Source of the DNA: a virus
Reading direction: 5' to 3' (one strand)
DNA: 20,924 nucleotides
IMG/VR virus record: IMGVR_UViG_3300016745_000460
Span: 1 to 20,924 of that record
Part shown: one piece after another, positions 6,511 to 10,844 of the stretch
Position numbering within the stretch: position 1 is the first letter of the stretch
Layout: every line of letters begins with the position of its first letter
Notes under the pieces: model-generated
Databases searched by the model: none
The model's input: only the letters and a program-made list of their open reading frames with translations
What the model was told of the DNA's origin: nothing
Made by a program: the position numbers and the translations under genes

Positions 6511-6666
6511 TCTAAAAGCATTACGCTCCGCTTGCGGTCCCGGAGGGGTACGTGTTCAGAACACGTACGTGTTAAGCATGTACGTGTTACTAAACACTTT
6601 CTTATTCAAAACACTTTCAATGCACGTGCTATGCACTGTCTCAAATTCTGTGGATAACTTTCAGGC
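6511..6666. other. Candidate replication origin: repeats plus DnaA box
   Basis: This non-coding gap carries three direct copies of GTACGTGTT (6548-6556, 6565-6573, 6580-6588). One of them is half of a near-perfect 19-base palindrome, TACGTGTTC-A-GAACACGTA, at 6549-6567. Two copies of AAACACTTTC (6592-6601, 6609-6618), the palindrome GCACGTGC (6622-6629) and a consensus DnaA box (6649-6657) follow. The stretch from 6588 to 6620 is AT-rich. Direct repeats, AT-rich DNA and a DnaA box together fit an iteron-type origin. The gap also separates two convergent transcription units. An alternative is a cluster of regulator sites. Confidence 0.45.
6649..6657 (-). other. Consensus DnaA box
   Basis: The plus strand reads TGTGGATAA, the complement of TTATCCACA, the strongest DnaA-binding sequence in Escherichia coli. 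A nine-base match can occur by chance, but it lies directly beside the direct repeats of the same gap. Confidence 0.5.
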
Positions 6667-6692
6667 AAAAAAAAAGCCCGGCGAACCGGGCT
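6667..6692 (-). terminator. Intrinsic terminator of the ribozyme operon
   Basis: On the minus strand the RNA folds as AGCCCGG, loop UUCG, CCGGGCU, followed by a run of nine U (plus-strand A run 6667-6675, whose last A also pairs in the stem). This is a textbook Rho-independent terminator, about 20 bases after the stop of the last leftward gene. No equivalent U run follows any hairpin inside the operon. Confidence 0.9.
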
Positions 6693-6696
6693 GAAG

Positions 6697-6714
6697 ACAC
6701 ACAGGGGAGTGTGT
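6697..6714 (-). other. 3' UTR hairpin exposing an anti-Shine-Dalgarno loop
   Basis: The minus-strand RNA reads ACACAC, UCCCCU, GUGUGU: a six-pair stem with a C-rich loop between the last stop codon and the terminator. The segment UCCCCUGUGUGU is complementary over 12 nt to ACACACAGGGGA, the ribosome-binding leader found before the operon's genes (full 12 nt at three leaders, shorter at the others). It could pair with those leaders in cis or in trans. Regulation is inferred; the complementarity is directly visible. Confidence 0.5.
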
Positions 6715-6896
6715 TAGATAGTCAGTGAGTGACGATACACGATCGCCATCACTGTTCCAAAGTGTTTTTGATTGGGTCTAACCGCACGATACCCCTGATG
6801 AGTGCGGCTAATGTGCATCACGCTCAGATGATTGCGGAGCATGATTGATTTTGCATCCGCTAGCGCATCTAGCGGATTGAGTTTGAATCCAAACAT
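6714..6896 (-). CDS. Last gene of the ribozyme operon, unknown
   Basis: The protein has 60 residues, is basic with several His, and has no membrane segment. No family recognised. It begins inside the previous gene with a 28-base overlap, which suggests translational coupling rather than separation by a ribozyme; this is one of the two gene junctions in the operon without one. The terminator follows shortly after its stop. The frame is moderately convincing because of its position between a gene end and the terminator. Confidence 0.55.
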   Translation of the reverse strand: MFGFKLNPLDALADAKSIMLRNHLSVMHISRTHQGYRAVRPNQKHFGTVMAIVYRHSLTI

Positions 6897-7276
6897 GGAT
6901 TGTCCTTGAGCCTGTATTGGGCAAATCGTTTGCCGTTATGTTTAATCATGGTCGAGGTGATATTGTATCCCCTTCCTCTCAGATCATAAATGCGAGCAGA
7001 CAATCGCATACAGCCAATTTCCATCGTGGATTCCCACTGAGTGATTGAACCATTGCGTTTCATGAATGCCAAAATAAGGTCGCATTGAGCGCCCTTGGTT
7101 TGCTCCTCGGTTGAGTCGAAGTCTTCAGACGGATCGATTGTACGAACGATCGCTGATAGTGCGGCAGGGCCGCTCTCCATTGTGCGTTCTGCGAAATCGT
7201 CTGCCGCATTTTTGCTTTCAGCATAAAAAGTGACAGTCCCGCCGTCAGAATATTCAACGTCGATTGCGTGCTTCAT
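6869..7276 (-). CDS. HTH-domain protein (HTH_39-like)
   Basis: The protein has 135 residues. The start is preceded by the operon's common leader AAGGGGAAATAC. Residues 1-60 resemble a small domain that begins with strand-like segments (VEYSDGGTVTFYAE) and ends acidic. Residues about 66-122 form a winged helix-turn-helix: QCDLILAFMKRNGSITQWESTMEIGCMRLSARIYDLRGRGYNI, then a wing-like NGKRFAQYRL. This domain is common in small phage proteins (I believe the Pfam HTH_39 type) and probably binds DNA. It is the most recognisable gene of the operon and may be a late regulator or host-directed factor. It follows ribozyme A. Confidence 0.65.
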   Translation of the reverse strand: MKHAIDVEYSDGGTVTFYAESKNAADDFAERTMESGPAALSAIVRTIDPSEDFDSTEEQTKGAQCDLILAFMKRNGSITQWESTMEIGCMRLSARIYDLRGRGYNITSTMIKHNGKRFAQYRLKDNPCLDSNSIR

Positions 7277-7298
7277 ATTGTATTTCCCCTTGATGTGC

Positions 7299-7358
7299 GA
7301 CCTGTCTTATCAATACGGGTAGGTCACATCCCGTAGACCGGGCGAACCCGGTTTCGAC
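7299..7358 (-). ncRNA. Type II hammerhead ribozyme A
   Basis: Minus-strand RNA order: GUC (stem II), GAAA, stem III CCGGG-UUCG-CCCGG, UC, then cleavage between 7336 and 7335. Stem I follows as UACGGG/CCCGUA, then the core UUGAUAA, GAC (stem II) and AGGUC. AGGUC pairs with GACCU in loop I, forming the pseudoknot typical of type II hammerheads. The core differs from CUGAUGA at C3 to U and G8 to A, which keeps a Watson-Crick 3-8 pair. The G of the upstream gene's UAG stop is the first base of stem II. Cleavage lies 22 nt after that stop and leaves a 59-nt leader before the next AUG. Confidence 0.85.
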
Positions 7359-7726
7359 TATGCAAGATGGTTCAAGTGGTGACGCTTGAGCAACCCAAAC
7401 AAATATTTTGTCGAGCTTTCTAGCTCATCACCAAACACTCTGAACTCTGTGTGCAGTACGCACTCTTCCATGAACATTGGGACAAAGTCACAGTCGAAGG
7501 GTTCATCATAATCAAGCTCATCCTTGACCATGTTGTAGACCTGTTCGCATGACACAGCCAACTCTGAGATCTTGTCTCTTGTATGAGCCATGCCGTGCTG
7601 TCTTCTGAACGCCTTCAAATCGTGATCGTCGTCCAATTCTTGGAAGTATTCATTGATGACCTGCGCTGTGAACAGCAGTTGGTCAGCCTGAATTCCGCAC
7701 ACTTTTTCATTAAGAATGTTTTCCAT
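7358..7726 (-). CDS. Acidic unknown protein of the ribozyme operon
   Basis: The ATG at 7726 is chosen because it follows the operon's shared leader (AGGGGAAATAAA); longer frames would run into ribozyme B. The protein has 122 residues, is acidic (DDDHD, DELDYDEPFDCDF), helical, and has no membrane segment or signal peptide. No family recognised. Acidic small proteins are frequent among phage inhibitors of host factors, which is a possibility only. Its UAG stop lies at the edge of ribozyme A, and ribozyme B lies upstream. Confidence 0.65.
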   Translation of the reverse strand: MENILNEKVCGIQADQLLFTAQVINEYFQELDDDHDLKAFRRQHGMAHTRDKISELAVSCEQVYNMVKDELDYDEPFDCDFVPMFMEECVLHTEFRVFGDELESSTKYLFGLLKRHHLNHLA

Positions 7727-7744
7727 TTTATTTCCCCTATGTGA

Positions 7745-7811
7745 TTGCCCTGACATCGTCAGATCGGGTAAGGCAAGGTCCCCGATGACGCACCCGGAGG
7801 TGCGTTTCGTC
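7745..7811 (-). ncRNA. Type II hammerhead ribozyme B
   Basis: RNA order: GAC (stem II), GAAA, stem III CGCACC-UCCG-GGUGCG, UC, cleavage between 7787 and 7786. Then stem I AUCGGG/CCCGAU, the core CUGACGA, one extra U, GUC (stem II), and GGCAA pairing with UUGCC of loop I. Stem II is inverted relative to the other copies (GAC/GUC instead of GUC/GAC), a double change that preserves pairing. The extra U after A9 is unusual and may reduce activity. Cleavage lies 24 nt after the upstream stop, and the downstream leader is 60 nt. Confidence 0.8.
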
Positions 7812-8272
7812 TATGCAAAAAGCTCATCAAATTCAGCAACCTGAATTGATAGAACGGATGTGGCTTTGTTGTCGAGACCAATGATGACCTCGATTGCACG
7901 GCCTTGGTTGCTATGCCAGACAGCGGTCAGTCCGGCATCTTCAAGATCATGCACCAGTTGCTGTGCATGCATGTGCATCTGCGCTTCCCGGCGGTCACCT
8001 TTCGGATACCACGGGAAATTAACGTAAACCTGAAAGCCGTTGGTCTCTAGATCATTCGCCAGCACATTGTCGCTCCAATCTGCATGCGATTCAGTCCAGA
8101 AATAGCATGGTTGGTTAAGCTCCTCCATGCGGGCTTTGAACTCCTTGAGCATAGATTTGTTGAGACCTACGCGGGCAGAGACTTTACGCTTGGGCCTGCT
8201 GTCACGCATGACACTTTTGAAAGTTTCATACTGAGCCGCCTTGATACGCTGAATGATTTTCATGTGATTCAT
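7811..8272 (-). CDS. Unknown protein of the ribozyme operon, 153 residues
   Basis: The start is set by the shared leader AGGGGAAGCATT before the ATG. The basic N-terminal half (KRKVSARVGLNKS, then a helix around MLKEFKARMEEL) precedes a mixed half with QVYVNFPWYPKG, DAGLTAVW and RAIEVIIGLD, which look like alternating strands and helices of a compact domain. No membrane segment and no recognised family. The stop lies inside ribozyme B, and ribozyme C lies before the start. Confidence 0.65.
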   Translation of the reverse strand: MNHMKIIQRIKAAQYETFKSVMRDSRPKRKVSARVGLNKSMLKEFKARMEELNQPCYFWTESHADWSDNVLANDLETNGFQVYVNFPWYPKGDRREAQMHMHAQQLVHDLEDAGLTAVWHSNQGRAIEVIIGLDNKATSVLSIQVAEFDELFA

Positions 8273-8291
8273 AATGCTTCCCCTGTGTGTG

Positions 8292-8357
8292 TCATCCTGT
8301 CTAATCATGCCGGGTAGGATGAGGTTCCCGACGACACACCCGAAGGTGTGTTTCGAC
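8292..8357 (-). ncRNA. Type II hammerhead ribozyme C
   Basis: RNA order: GUC, GAAA, stem III CACACC-UUCG-GGUGUG, UC, cleavage between 8333 and 8332. Then stem I GUCGGG/CCCGGC (one U-G wobble), the core AUGAUUA, GAC, and AGGAUGA pairing with UCAUCCU of loop I over seven bases. The core has A3 and U8 in place of C3 and G8, again a compensated pair and a third version of it in this array. Cleavage lies 25 nt after the UGA stop; the leader is 60 nt. Confidence 0.8.
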
Positions 8358-8597
8358 TCAAAGGCAAATGCGTATACGTTCGATGGTGTGCTTGCCGCGT
8401 ACCAGCCGGTGATCGACTTTGACGCGACGGCCAACGAAGGCATGCCAGTCATGCGCTTGCACCCAATTGGCATTGCAGGGTGTGTAAAAGCACTCTGCTG
8501 TGCCGGGCTTGTTACCGATCAATAGCATCCAACGTGGGTTGCCATTACGTGTGTTCAGTTCGCGTGATACTTGCAGTACGTTTGCATGTGTTTCCAT
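8358..8597 (-). CDS. Small basic unknown protein of the ribozyme operon
   Basis: The ATG at 8597 follows the shared leader AGGGGAAATATC. The protein has 79 residues and is basic, with Cys at about 36, 41 and 79. The stretch PRWMLLIGNKPGTAECFYTPCN, then HDWHAFVGRRVKVDHRLVRGKHTI, looks like a small beta-barrel rather than a helical protein; a nucleic-acid-binding OB- or SH3-like fold would be compatible, but this is a guess. It ends in UGA directly before ribozyme C. Confidence 0.65.
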   Translation of the reverse strand: METHANVLQVSRELNTRNGNPRWMLLIGNKPGTAECFYTPCNANWVQAHDWHAFVGRRVKVDHRLVRGKHTIERIRICL

Positions 8598-8617
8598 GAT
8601 ATTTCCCCTGTATGTGC

Positions 8618-8680
8618 CACCCTGTCTTATCAATACAGGTAGGGTGAGATTCCTGTAGACGCCCCGGAGGGCGTTTCGAC
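8618..8680 (-). ncRNA. Type II hammerhead ribozyme D
   Basis: RNA order: GUC, GAAA, stem III CGCCC-UCCG-GGGCG, UC, cleavage between 8658 and 8657. Then stem I UACAGG/CCUGUA, the core UUGAUAA, GAC, and AGGGUG pairing with CACCCU of loop I over six bases. As in copy A, C3-G8 is replaced by U3-A8. The G of the upstream UAG stop is the first base of stem II. Cleavage lies 22 nt after the stop; the leader is 60 nt. Confidence 0.85.
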
Positions 8681-9027
8681 TATGCCATTTCAACCGTTTC
8701 TTCTGTCACGTACTTGCATGTGTATGTGACCTCATCGCCTTTGAATCTATCGAACACCTTGAAGTGCTTAGCGACAAATCGAAACTCGATATCTTTACGG
8801 CCTCGATACGCATGTTCATTTTGAAACTGCCAGTTGACAGCTTTGAGATACCCAACGTCGAAATCATCGTCTGGACTCGGTTCAGCGTCGAATGTTCCAC
8901 CGGGATGTGACACCCGTTGAACTTCAAGCATCGGTATCCATTGTGATGTCTTCCATTCAGACCACTTGCGGCCCTCTTTTTTGCGGTATTGACATGCATA
9001 TGAATTGGCTTGGATTAGATTTTCCAT
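8680..9027 (-). CDS. Unknown protein of the ribozyme operon, 115 residues
   Basis: The ATG at 9027 follows AGGGGAAATACA. The N-terminal half is rich in Lys and Trp (RKKEGRKWSEWKTSQW), an acidic loop follows (PSPDDDFD), and a strand-rich C-terminal half includes IEFRFVAKHFKVF and VTYTCKYVTEE. It is soluble, with no signal peptide. I do not recognise it. The stop touches ribozyme D, and ribozyme E lies upstream. Confidence 0.65.
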   Translation of the reverse strand: MENLIQANSYACQYRKKEGRKWSEWKTSQWIPMLEVQRVSHPGGTFDAEPSPDDDFDVGYLKAVNWQFQNEHAYRGRKDIEFRFVAKHFKVFDRFKGDEVTYTCKYVTEETVEMA

Positions 9028-9048
9028 TGTATTTCCCCTGTGTTGAGA

Positions 9049-9109
9049 TACCTGTCTCATCAGTGCCGGGAGGTAAACCCCGGTCAGACGGGCCGAAGCC
9101 CGTTTCGAC
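9049..9109 (-). ncRNA. Type II hammerhead ribozyme E (consensus core)
   Basis: RNA order: GUC, GAAA, stem III CGGGC-UUCG-GCCCG, UC, cleavage between 9087 and 9086. Then stem I UG(A)CCGGG/CCCGGCA with one bulged A, the full consensus core CUGAUGA, GAC, and AGGUA pairing with UACCU of loop I. The C(UUCG)G tetraloop is one of the most stable RNA loops known. All core bases (C3 to A9, G12-A14, A15.1-U16.1, C17) match the consensus, so this is a strong candidate for activity. Cleavage lies 23 nt after the stop; the leader is 59 nt. Confidence 0.9.
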
Positions 9110-9370
9110 TTATGCAGTTGTGATGCCCTCAGCAATGTAAATTCGGTTGAGGGTAAGCACTAGATCATGCTTGGTATCAGCGCGGGCGATGACTTTGGTG
9201 AAGCCGTCCGCATTGCGTATCGATGTGTCTTTGGCAAGCCACCGACCTCCAACTTTTAAAACGGAGATGTGTTCGTTGCCTTTGACAACCCATTCTGCTG
9301 AGTCTGTTCCCATGCCGTTTCCAAGCCATTCTGTAGACTTAGTTTTGGTCAGCTTGATGTAGTTTTTCAT
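9110..9370 (-). CDS. Small unknown protein of the ribozyme operon, 86 residues
   Basis: The ATG at 9370 is set by the shared leader AGGGGAATAC; the longer frame would cover ribozyme F and the small genes upstream. The protein has a basic, Thr/Lys-rich start (IKLTKTKSTEW), then strand-like segments (SAEWVVKGNEHISVLKVGGRW) and a C-terminal helix (TKHDLVLTLNRIYIAEG). It is soluble. Not recognised. Confidence 0.65.
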   Translation of the reverse strand: MKNYIKLTKTKSTEWLGNGMGTDSAEWVVKGNEHISVLKVGGRWLAKDTSIRNADGFTKVIARADTKHDLVLTLNRIYIAEGITTA

Positions 9371-9388
9371 TTTGTATTCCCCTGTGTT

Positions 9389-9450
9389 TGAGATGTCTTC
9401 ATCAGACCGTGGTCTCTCACACCACGATGACGGGCAAGGCCCGTTTCGAC
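9389..9450 (-). ncRNA. Type II hammerhead ribozyme F
   Basis: RNA order: GUC, GAAA, stem III CGGGC-CUU-GCCCG with a three-base loop in place of UNCG, UC, cleavage between 9429 and 9428. Then stem I AUCGUGG/CCACGGU (seven pairs, one wobble), the consensus core CUGAUGA, one extra A, GAC, and UCUCA pairing with UGAGA of loop I. The extra base between A9 and stem II resembles that of copy B. Cleavage lies 22 nt after the UAA stop; the leader is 58 nt. Confidence 0.8.
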
Positions 9451-9537
9451 TTAGTACCAATCGGTTGACCGTAGGACCGCCCATGCAAGGATGGTGATGC
9501 CCCAAAGGATCAAGAAGGTTTCTTCTGCGCCAGTCAT
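9451..9537 (-). CDS. 28-residue single-TM microprotein
   Basis: MTGAEETFLILWGITILAWA is followed by a short polar tail (VLRSTDWY): one predicted membrane helix with an acidic N-terminus. The ATG overlaps the preceding stop by one base (TGATG) and has GGGAGGTGAT at ideal spacing, by far the best ribosome-binding site of the operon. The stop is followed immediately by ribozyme F. Very small phage membrane peptides often act on host membrane proteins or lysis, but no function can be assigned here. Confidence 0.65.
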   Translation of the reverse strand: MTGAEETFLILWGITILAWAVLRSTDWY

Positions 9538-9611
9538 CAGATCACCTCCCAGAACTTGAGAGTGCCAAATGCGAAAGCCGCGCTAAATGAAAGAATGATT
9601 AATAGTTCCAT
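9537..9611 (-). CDS. 24-residue single-TM microprotein
   Basis: MELLIILSFSAAFAFGTLKF ends in WEVI. The whole peptide is one hydrophobic membrane helix with a single Lys near the end. The ATG lies exactly where a gene start is expected relative to ribozyme G, after the shared leader AGGGGAATACAC and 57 nt from the cleavage site. Its stop overlaps the ATG of the next microprotein. Together the pair forms the only two-gene segment between two ribozymes. Confidence 0.65.
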   Translation of the reverse strand: MELLIILSFSAAFAFGTLKFWEVI

Positions 9612-9630
9612 GTGTATTCCCCTGTGTGTT

Positions 9631-9691
9631 GCCCTGTCTCATCAGTGTGGGTAGGGCGTGATCCCACAGACCGCCCGGAGGCGGTTTCGAC
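9631..9691 (-). ncRNA. Type II hammerhead ribozyme G (consensus core)
   Basis: RNA order: GUC, GAAA, stem III CCGCC-UCCG-GGCGG, UC, cleavage between 9669 and 9668. Then stem I UGUGGG/CCCACA, the consensus core CUGAUGA, GAC, and AGGGC pairing with GCCCU of loop I. Every core base agrees with the hammerhead consensus and all stems are perfect. Cleavage lies 23 nt after the stop of the first gene; the leader of the microprotein pair is 57 nt. Confidence 0.9.
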
Positions 9692-10054
9692 TTATGCGCT
9701 TTCAATCAGCTTTCTGATTTTCTTGATGACTTTGCGTTCTGCTTCAGCCATTTTTTTGTTGCCGTACGCGATGGCTTCTTGAGGTGTTTTAAATGATTTG
9801 GCGCGAGGTGCTTGTCCGAATCTTTCACCGTTCCGTTCATTTCTCAGAAACACTGTAAAATCCCTTGGAACGAAATCTTCAGGTCTGACCCAACACCGCT
9901 TTGACCATTCCGCATTCTCGTCTTTGGTGTAGTCAAACTGCCAAACCAAAAAACTGAATCCGATGACTCTGCCTTGAGCATCTCGCAATCCAAATTCTTT
10001 GCTTTCTTCAGCGACAATTTTTTCTTCACGTGAACATGTAATTAAGTTAGTCAT
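9692..10054 (-). CDS. First gene of the ribozyme operon, unknown
   Basis: The protein has 120 residues and starts after the shared leader AGGGGAATACAC. The N-terminal part (about 20-75) has strand-like segments (GRVIGFSFLVWQFDY, KRCWVRPEDFV, FTVFLRNERNGERFG), and the C-terminal 45 residues form a basic helical stretch (KTPQEAIAYGNKKMAEAERKVIKKIRKLIES). No family recognised. As the promoter-proximal gene it should be the most strongly expressed of the unit. The type III ribozyme lies in its leader, and its ribosome-binding site may be paired within that ribozyme. Confidence 0.65.
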   Translation of the reverse strand: MTNLITCSREEKIVAEESKEFGLRDAQGRVIGFSFLVWQFDYTKDENAEWSKRCWVRPEDFVPRDFTVFLRNERNGERFGQAPRAKSFKTPQEAIAYGNKKMAEAERKVIKKIRKLIESA

Positions 10055-10061
10055 TGTGTAT

Positions 10062-10126
10062 TCCCCTGTGTGTTTCGCGGATACTGCCGCTCATCAGTCA
10101 GGCTGGTTGCCTGAGACACTAGGGGG
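10062..10126 (-). ncRNA. Type III hammerhead ribozyme H in the operon leader
   Basis: RNA order: GUG, UC, cleavage between 10115 and 10114. Then stem I UCAGGC-AACCA-GCCUGA, the consensus core CUGAUGA, stem II GCGG-CAGUAU-CCGC, GAAA and CAC, which pairs with GUG to close stem III. The open stem is III, so this is a different permutation from the seven type II copies. The catalytic core is complete at 10070-10119. Stem III can be extended: UUCCCC upstream of the cleavage site can pair with GGGGAA, the ribosome-binding site of the first gene. The leader after cleavage is 60 nt. Confidence 0.85.
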
Positions 10127-10179
10127 GAAAGTTAACTGGTTGGTGCGTGATGCGAATGCTTGAGTGAGACCTTGCTGAA

Positions 10180-10203
10180 TCAGCGGAACCCCGAAGGCGC
10201 TGA
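10180..10203 (-). other. Leader hairpin upstream of the first ribozyme
   Basis: The minus-strand RNA forms UCAGCG/CGCUGA around a segment that contains GCC-UUCG-GGG, a C(UUCG)G tetraloop. It sits between the promoter and ribozyme H, in the fragment that would be discarded by cleavage. There is no U run, so it is not a terminator. Confidence 0.5.
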
Positions 10204-10260
10204 AACCATCCGGAAACCAGAAGCACCGTCAAGGCGCAGACCAGATAACCAGTAAGCAGG

Positions 10261-10273
10261 TTTTTAAAGAGCT
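10261..10273 (-). promoter_or_regulatory. boxA-like antitermination motif
   Basis: The minus-strand RNA reads AGCUCUUUAAAAA about 25-35 nt after the predicted transcription start. It matches UGCUCUUUAACA, the boxA of ribosomal RNA operons, over the core GCUCUUUAA. boxA recruits NusB and S10 to make polymerase resistant to Rho. Its location at the head of a long, structured operon makes that role plausible, but a nine-base match is modest evidence. Confidence 0.45.
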
Positions 10274-10303
10274 TTGAACCGGGGCCGCCGATCCGTTGAG
10301 AAC

Positions 10304-10344
10304 ATTATAATCATAGTGTGACGCATTACGTCAACACCTATGTG
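10304..10344. promoter_or_regulatory. Divergent promoter region with second operator copy
   Basis: GTGACGCATTACGTCAAC (10318-10335) matches the palindrome at 5828-5845 in 14 of 18 bases. Leftward, TTGACG (complement of 10329-10334), a long 19-base spacer and TATAAT (complement of 10304-10309) would start the ribozyme operon near 10297. Rightward promoter elements are weak (GTGACG with TATGTG at 10339-10344). The site lies between the ribozyme operon and the packaging genes, so the same regulator could act on both. Confidence 0.55.
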
Positions 10345-10355
10345 AAATTTTTTTT

Positions 10356-10427
10356 GAGGGGTACACTGTCAAGTGCGCGGAAGCGTGATGTTCCCTCACT
10401 TGCCCCGGCGCAGACCGGGGACTTTTT
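10356..10427 (+). terminator. Attenuator-like hairpins before the small terminase gene
   Basis: CCCCGG-CGCAGA-CCGGGG (10403-10420) followed by ACTTTTT is a possible intrinsic terminator placed between the promoter and the structural genes. Just upstream, CAAGTG/CACTTG (10370-10375, 10397-10402) can pair, while GAGGG (10356-10360) can pair with CCCTC (10393-10397); the two foldings exclude each other. This arrangement suggests attenuation of late genes. The U run is short, so termination would be partial. Confidence 0.45.
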
Positions 10428-10439
10428 AGGAGAGACGAT

Positions 10440-10844
10440 GTGGCACGAAAGGAACGAGTAAGCAAAGCGCAGATGAAGCGCATTTGTGATGAGCTATGCG
10501 ATGGGCGATCGCTAACCAAGATTTGTCAGGCGGATGAGTTGCCATCGTGGCGCACTGTGCTCCGCTGGGTCCAAGAGGATGAAGATGCCCACGAGATGTA
10601 TCGGAAGGCCAGAGCGTTGCAGGCAGAGATTTTGCGCGACCAGATTATTGATTTAGTCGAACAGCCGCTCCCGGACGATCCAAAGCTCGCACAAGCAGAG
10701 GTCCAGCGTAGACGACTTGAAGCTGATCAAAAGGACAAGTATGTGAGACAGCTTGCTCCGTTGGGTATTCGCAATAAGGCTGTCGATACTAAGGATCAAA
10801 TGAGTGGCACGATCACTCTTAAATGGAATGATGCTGAGAGCTAA
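10440..10844 (+). CDS. terS: Terminase small subunit
   Basis: The protein has 134 residues and starts with GTG at 10440; the overlapping ATG at 10438 hits a stop after seven codons, and AGGAGAG is correctly placed. Residues about 1-55 form a helix-turn-helix with a Trp-containing recognition part (MKRICDELCDGRSLTKICQ, then LPSWRTVLRWVQ), followed by a helical oligomerisation region and a short strand-like tail (GTITLKW). This is the Sf6-type small terminase layout: it recognises the packaging site and delivers DNA to the large subunit. The large terminase gene follows after an unusual 420-base gap. Confidence 0.8.
   Translation: MARKERVSKAQMKRICDELCDGRSLTKICQADELPSWRTVLRWVQEDEDAHEMYRKARALQAEILRDQIIDLVEQPLPDDPKLAQAEVQRRRLEADQKDKYVRQLAPLGIRNKAVDTKDQMSGTITLKWNDAES

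Follow-up and report, generated by a model that had tools for sequence, protein, structure and literature searches.

A type III hammerhead that may gate translation of the first gene in a phage operon

A virus record of 20,924 bases (hereafter the window, meaning the whole stretch of DNA analyzed) carries a minus-strand operon of small genes that is headed by a ribozyme, H. Judged by covariation among related leaders, H has a genuine type III hammerhead fold and is predicted to cleave itself, and the masking of the Shine-Dalgarno (SD) sequence of gene 1 by H is a sound prediction from folding. The tentative explanation that we place first, at slightly less than an even chance, is that H gates translation of gene 1 on removal of the leader. 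If this reading of H is right, some phage hammerheads gate the translation of first genes besides cutting messages apart, which would amount to a natural example of a laboratory-invented device. Ever since hammerhead rows were described in 2011, their role in phage transcripts has been unsettled.

The operon and its leading hammerhead

The terminase large subunit encoded in the window shares ∼57% identity with its counterpart in HTVC010P-type Pelagibacter phages. The operon extends from ∼10297, through gene 1 and the genes that follow it, down to an intrinsic terminator (Table 1). Among the genes tested, the only clear family match was to HTH_39, in the gene at 7276 to 6869, and the operon DNA from 7000 to 10700 had no match in the phage collection. 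The promoter-like sequence is not a strong consensus match; its TTGAC element and the overlapping palindrome TGACGTAATGCGTCA are largely conserved in relatives. The palindrome (10333 to 10319, minus strand) is a possible operator. The length of ∼180 nt that had been proposed for the leader fits a start near 10297, a position placed by eye from the promoter-like sequence only, and the leader is highly conserved in an alignment of five related records. Near the leader start is the element GCUCUUUAA, which we take to be akin to the boxA of rrn operons and phages and which suggests an antitermination leader later removed by H.

Table 1. Coordinates of the operon features in the window (hammerheads, cuts, and regulatory elements are predictions)
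Feature	Position	Strand	Details
Promoter-like sequence	10304..10334	-	TTGACG (10334-10329) and TATAAT (10309-10304), spacer 19; read from sequence; overlaps palindrome TGACGTAATGCGTCA
Leader RNA, ∼180 nt	10115..10297	-	5′ product of predicted cleavage; from alignment, start inferred
boxA-like element GCTCTTTAA in leader	10264..10272	-	TCTTTAA conserved in 5/5 related leaders
Leader tail UUUCCCCCCUA	10120..10130	-	UUCCCC (10129-10124) pairs with gene 1 SD
Hammerhead H, type III	10070..10119	-	stem III GUGU/ACAC 10119-10116/10073-10070; stem I 10114-10109/10103-10098
H core and stem II		-	CUGAUGA 10097-10091; stem II 10090-10087/10080-10077; GAAA 10076-10073
Gene 1 SD, GGGGAA	10061..10066	-	predicted buried in extended stem III
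Gene 1, 120 aa	9692..10054	-	no known family
Hammerhead G, type II	9636..9691	-	cut 9669/9668
Hammerhead F, type II	9387..9451	-	cut 9429/9428; extra A between A9 and stem II
Hammerhead E, type II	9054..9109	-	cut 9087/9086
Hammerhead D, type II	8624..8681	-	cut 8658/8657; core U3-A8
Hammerhead C, type II	8299..8358	-	cut 8333/8332; core A3-U8
Hammerhead B, type II	7744..7812	-	cut 7787/7786; extra U between A9 and stem II
Hammerhead A, type II	7304..7357	-	cut 7336/7335; core U3-A8
3′-UTR hairpin ACACAC-UCCCCU-GUGUGU	6697..6714	-	loop and 3′ arm UCCCCUGUGUGU antisense to shared RBS motif ACACACAGGGGA
Intrinsic terminator of operon	6668..6692	-

The earlier note described H as open at stem III and all other copies as open at stem II, and this was borne out, with seven type II copies in the operon besides H, by the Rfam RF00008 match, a descriptor scan, matches to RF02276, and a scan allowing core swaps. 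Stems I and II of H are closed by loops and stem III is open, the CUGAUGA, GAAA, and GUC elements are all present, and the descriptor scan gave 6, 4, and 4 bp for stems I, II, and III, with the predicted cut between C10115 and U10114. H shares topology and core with RF00008 (Hammerhead_3) and RF02276 (Hammerhead_II); its RF00008 match (10122 to 10067, minus strand) scored 28.4 bits (E value of 0.022) and did not reach the gathering score of 48.5.

Related leaders were collected from viral contigs, and 19 sequences were aligned without gaps. All 266 base-pair cells of the H structure (100%) held standard pairs, the core columns were nearly all invariant, and both sides had changed in 10 of the 14 pairs; the corresponding figures for shuffles were 72% and 7.3. 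When the structure was slid by 1 to 3 columns along the same alignment, only 22 to 40% of the cells were kept. In the two loops that would make a loop I-loop II tertiary contact, the letters NANYA in loop I and of the NNGUA type in loop II were also conserved, the latter having been selected for by the pattern searches.

Mixed-type arrays start with a type III copy in the window's clade (the window, L010, L012, L090, and L092) and in L101, L106/L107, L109, L110, L198, L205, and L099/L100/L104, with the type III matches checked by eye. Because L110 has a later type III copy as well and such copies also occur within the array of L245, the rule that type III comes first is strong but not absolute. 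Starting from the first genes of L198 and L205, cultured relatives were reached (phages of Rhodobacter, Erythrobacter, Pseudomonas, Roseobacter, Pelagibacter, and Mycobacterium), and the stretches fetched from them contained no type III leader hammerhead; one type II-like match was obtained, in a Tunturiibacter phage. When genome contigs were scanned with the type III pattern, no match convincingly passed the full hammerhead test. Four relatives with a similar terminase (80 to 82%; L028, L030, L033, and L040) carry type I hammerheads and not type II or convincing type III ones.

Predicted masking of the gene 1 Shine-Dalgarno sequence

The complementarity between UUCCCC upstream of the cut and GGGGAA at gene 1, pointed out in the earlier note, is real, with coordinates a few bases from those first given. 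Under a nearest-neighbor model that includes neither tertiary contacts nor pseudoknots, the best fold with the active core imposed comprises GUGU/ACAC, a 4 × 3 internal loop, and UUCCCC/GGGGAA, at −25.8 kcal/mol versus −16.5 kcal/mol for the core alone, and the UUCCCC/GGGGAA extension adds ∼9 kcal/mol. A rival register, in which GUGU pairs with a second ACAC, is 0.9 kcal/mol lower (−26.7 kcal/mol); it is cleavage incompetent and also buries the SD sequence. In the full context, the four G's of the SD sequence are predicted to be paired with a probability of 1.0, and opening the site is predicted to cost 10.2 kcal/mol in the uncut RNA and 2.1 kcal/mol in the 3′ product, in agreement with the proposal that the site would be buried before cleavage. 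The corresponding predictions for the seven type II copies are 1.0 to 3.4 kcal/mol uncut and 0.2 to 2.4 kcal/mol cut. Since these sites are cheap to open either way, H would be the only copy that masks an SD sequence, and cutting would level it with the others.

When the actual C-rich sequence upstream was shuffled by mononucleotides, the SD sequence was buried equally in 19% of cases, which argues that the composition of the C run is what matters. Shuffling of the 30 nt upstream was dropped as a null because six C's in 30 bases make most shuffles bury the G run, and real genomic segments were used instead. When the 30 nt upstream were swapped for random stretches of the same record, the opening cost was 3.1 ± 2.3 kcal/mol, and 11/1,000 (∼1%) reached the observed value.

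The tail UUCCCCCCUAGUGUC and the ribosome-binding site (RBS) ACACACAGGGGAAUA do not vary among the five related records, whose first genes are of at least three kinds; since much of the remaining leader is highly conserved as well, this invariance is not special by itself. An extra A in L012 extends the pairing to 8 bp (UAUUCCCC/GGGGAAUA), and no compensatory change in the UUCCCC/GGGGAA pairing was found within the window's clade. Thirteen further type III leaders from outside the clade were compared. Three of them are predicted to bury a different SD sequence significantly, namely, L103 (UGGAGU; 7.3 kcal/mol uncut, with 33/1,000 random segments as good), L198 (UGGAGA; 7.9 kcal/mol, 13/1,000), and L205 (GGAGAG; 12.7 kcal/mol, 7/1,000). 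Significant burial was absent from the other 10, including the most H-like leaders (L101, L106, L109, and L110). Masking is thus not general but a recurring option rather than a family trait.

Burial of the SD sequence had also been seen by eye in L106, L109, L110, L097, and L099, and it was not supported by folding with a fixed core: in L106, L097, and L099, the stretch that could pair with the SD sequence folds preferentially into an upstream hairpin, and the pairing is weak in L109 and L110 (opening costs of 2.0 and 2.4 kcal/mol). Four lineages, not nine, were therefore counted as burying the SD sequence. In L103, ∼2 kb downstream of the type III leader, positions 10067 to 10149 (plus strand) gave a near-threshold match to the Rfam Proteo-phage-1 RNA (38.9 bits versus 42).

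Leader removal and competing explanations

In the reading that we favor, H would cut at 10115|10114 and so detach the ∼180-nt leader from the phage operon. Before the cut, stem III would continue past the small internal loop into UUCCCC/GGGGAA and bury the SD sequence of gene 1, and cutting would remove the covalent link between the leader strand and the message. Once the leader strand had been displaced or degraded, the gene 1 message would be like the other seven, with a 5′ untranslated region (5′ UTR) of ∼60 nt, the stem I hairpin first, and an open SD sequence. Translation of gene 1 would then wait for removal of the leader, as behind a gate that is constitutive and self-timed and not a switch under ligand control. 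We infer cleavage in the cell, release of the 5′ strand, and an effect on translation. The earlier note had called H a self-cleaving on-switch; the masking and unmasking of the SD sequence are supported by the folding, the five related records, and L103, L198, and L205, but the word "switch" is not, because no ligand or trigger was found, and a one-way processing gate fits better. Rfam searches gave no riboswitch match in the window.

The weakest step of the on-switch proposal, by the predicted energies, is that the cut 5′ strand can leave. The 5′ product would still be held by −13.4 (active register) to −14.3 (shifted register) kcal/mol at 37°C, which, if the on-rate is taken to be 1e6 per M per s, corresponds to off-rates of ∼4e-4 to 8e-5 per second, far lower when cold, and to a predicted half-life of passive dissociation of tens of minutes or more. 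Because passive release would be slow on the time scale of a phage, ribosomes, RNases, or chaperones would be needed for it. A type II cut would leave the stem III hairpin on the upstream 3′ end and the stem I hairpin on the downstream 5′ end. After a type III cut, both hairpins would stay downstream, with none on the leader, whose end could then be degraded.

Several elements of this arrangement are known from other systems. Clustered prophage hammerheads flank single genes or short blocks, and their suggested role is the division of long transcripts into messages of gene length (Perreault et al. 2011, PMC3088659). The window resembles them in having several hammerheads in a phage transcript and differs in its eight copies per operon, with type III first and then type II, and in its shared RBS; masking of the SD sequence is not mentioned in the available portions of that paper. 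The same portions describe the HHphage variant of haloviruses HF1 and HF2, which is, like H, a natural virus hammerhead a few nucleotides upstream of the start codon of an early gene; unlike H, it is a variant ribozyme of archaeal viruses, and pairing with the SD sequence is not described there (PMC3088659). In engineered twister devices, and in hammerhead designs cited with them, the SD sequence is placed in a stem required by the ribozyme and freed by cutting, as predicted for H (PMC5052635). With the SD sequence in a twister stem, the active ribozyme raised expression in Escherichia coli 5-fold or ∼100-fold relative to the inactive one, an effect traced to access to the SD sequence and not to cutting as such (PMC5052635). 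The design can therefore work in cells. Such devices are artificial and many are ligand controlled, whereas H would be a natural device, apparently with no ligand. Phage hammerhead arrays and SD-masking ribozymes by design are thus already known. In searches of the open-access literature, no natural case that combines the two, with a hammerhead masking an SD sequence, came up. As far as folding predictions go, H is a plausible natural counterpart of the engineered devices.

Gating is the leading explanation, and close behind it, with a real but minority chance, comes the possibility that the sole task of H is to mature the 5′ end and detach the leader, in the way that the type II copies act between genes, with burial of the SD sequence as a by-product of stem III stability and with cutting too fast for the burial to matter. 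Since stem III of H has only 4 bp, the CCCC/GGGG pairing would help the ribozyme to fold, and since 2 nt separate the SD sequence from the stem, a longer stem III could not avoid including it. The 5′ UTRs left by the predicted cuts of copies A to H fit this explanation, being 57 to 60 nt long in all eight messages (8/8) and starting with a flush stem I hairpin. So does the absence of SD burial from most type III leaders; in L101, L106, and L109, stem III has ∼5 to 7 bp without the SD sequence, and the extension in the window may replace missing pairs. Its ∼9 kcal/mol nonetheless exceeds the apparent need of stem III, which has 4 to 6 bp in L111, L115, L116, and L117, and the same burial occurs in three unrelated leaders with other sequences, which speaks against a by-product.

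Decidedly less probable is an antisense role, in which, after cutting, UUUCCCCCCUAGUGU of the leader and the 3′-UTR hairpin UCCCCUGUGUGU would bind the shared RBS and damp translation of the operon in trans, the pairing at H being one case of anti-RBS binding. The leader tail is predicted to bind every RBS at −14 to −16.5 kcal/mol, compared to a mean of −8.4 kcal/mol for random operon stretches, and the 3′-UTR element, which is conserved in the five related records, is predicted to bind the RBSs at −18 to −30 kcal/mol. A comparable sequence, UUUCCUCCA, precedes the terminator of an unrelated array (L144). However, given a shared RBS, any anti-SD tail automatically matches all genes, and the leader 3′ end, with no protecting hairpin after the cut, may be short-lived. 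Mere coincidence, with no function behind the hammerhead-like fold or the complementarity, is very improbable, for despite an RF00008 score under the gathering cutoff and the shortness of a 6-nt complement to a G-rich SD sequence, the covariation (n = 19), the constant place directly before the first gene, and the conservation in five records stand against it.

The 3′ untranslated region and the type II copies

The operon genes share the RBS motif ACACAGGGGAA. The hairpin antisense to this motif lies just before the operon terminator and is conserved in the window, L010, L012, L090, and L092; fewer than 0.4 antisense 9-mers are expected by chance in the stretch scanned. On the minus strand of L144, an unrelated type II array, UUUCCUCCA lies ∼1,050 nt past the last hammerhead and directly before an intrinsic terminator and is antisense to the array's own RBS, UGGAGGAAA. 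Most other arrays showed no anti-RBS element; many of the contigs end before the operon does. Going by complementarity, this second anti-RBS element supports either the antisense explanation or an added layer of control, and the parallel in L144 hints at a possibly wider association of ribozyme arrays with anti-RBS elements. We regard as doubtful a wider, RNA-only circuit in which the eight hammerheads give near-identical 5′ ends with a shared RBS, the leader keeps the RBS of gene 1 masked up to its own removal by self-cleavage, and the 3′-UTR hairpin, with a 12-nt antisense stretch, can damp all messages.

Positions 6720 to 6668 bear a weak resemblance to the Betaproteobacteria toxic sRNA (RF02278), and downstream of the terminator, a long hairpin with ACGTAC-type inverted repeats (6546 to 6603) gave a false mir-299 match on both strands. 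These two Rfam matches were below threshold and were rejected.

Six of the type II copies (B to G) were found with Rfam RF02276, and the seventh, A, came from the scan that allowed core swaps. Compensated swaps of the C3-G8 core pair replace CUGAUGA with UUGAUAA (U3-A8) in A and D and with AUGAUUA (A3-U8) in C. The available portions of an earlier survey describe the U3-A8 swap in active hammerheads and contain no mention that we found of the A3-U8 swap (PMC3088659).

Of the 174 distinct type II copies that the fetched loci contain, 163 have an upstream open frame whose end lies shortly before the ribozyme. In the commonest arrangement, the stop codon ends 2 or 3 nt before GAAA and overlaps or touches stem II. 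Type II copies thus appear to be built onto stop codons, of which the leader has none. A ribosome terminating at such a stop codon would cover the ribozyme. In type II copies (e.g., 9691 to 9628, minus strand), letters of loop I (GCCCU) are complementary to the tail after stem II (AGGGC), and this match covaries between copies and relatives (ACCU/AGGU and GAUCCU/AGGAUC), which points to a pseudoknot.
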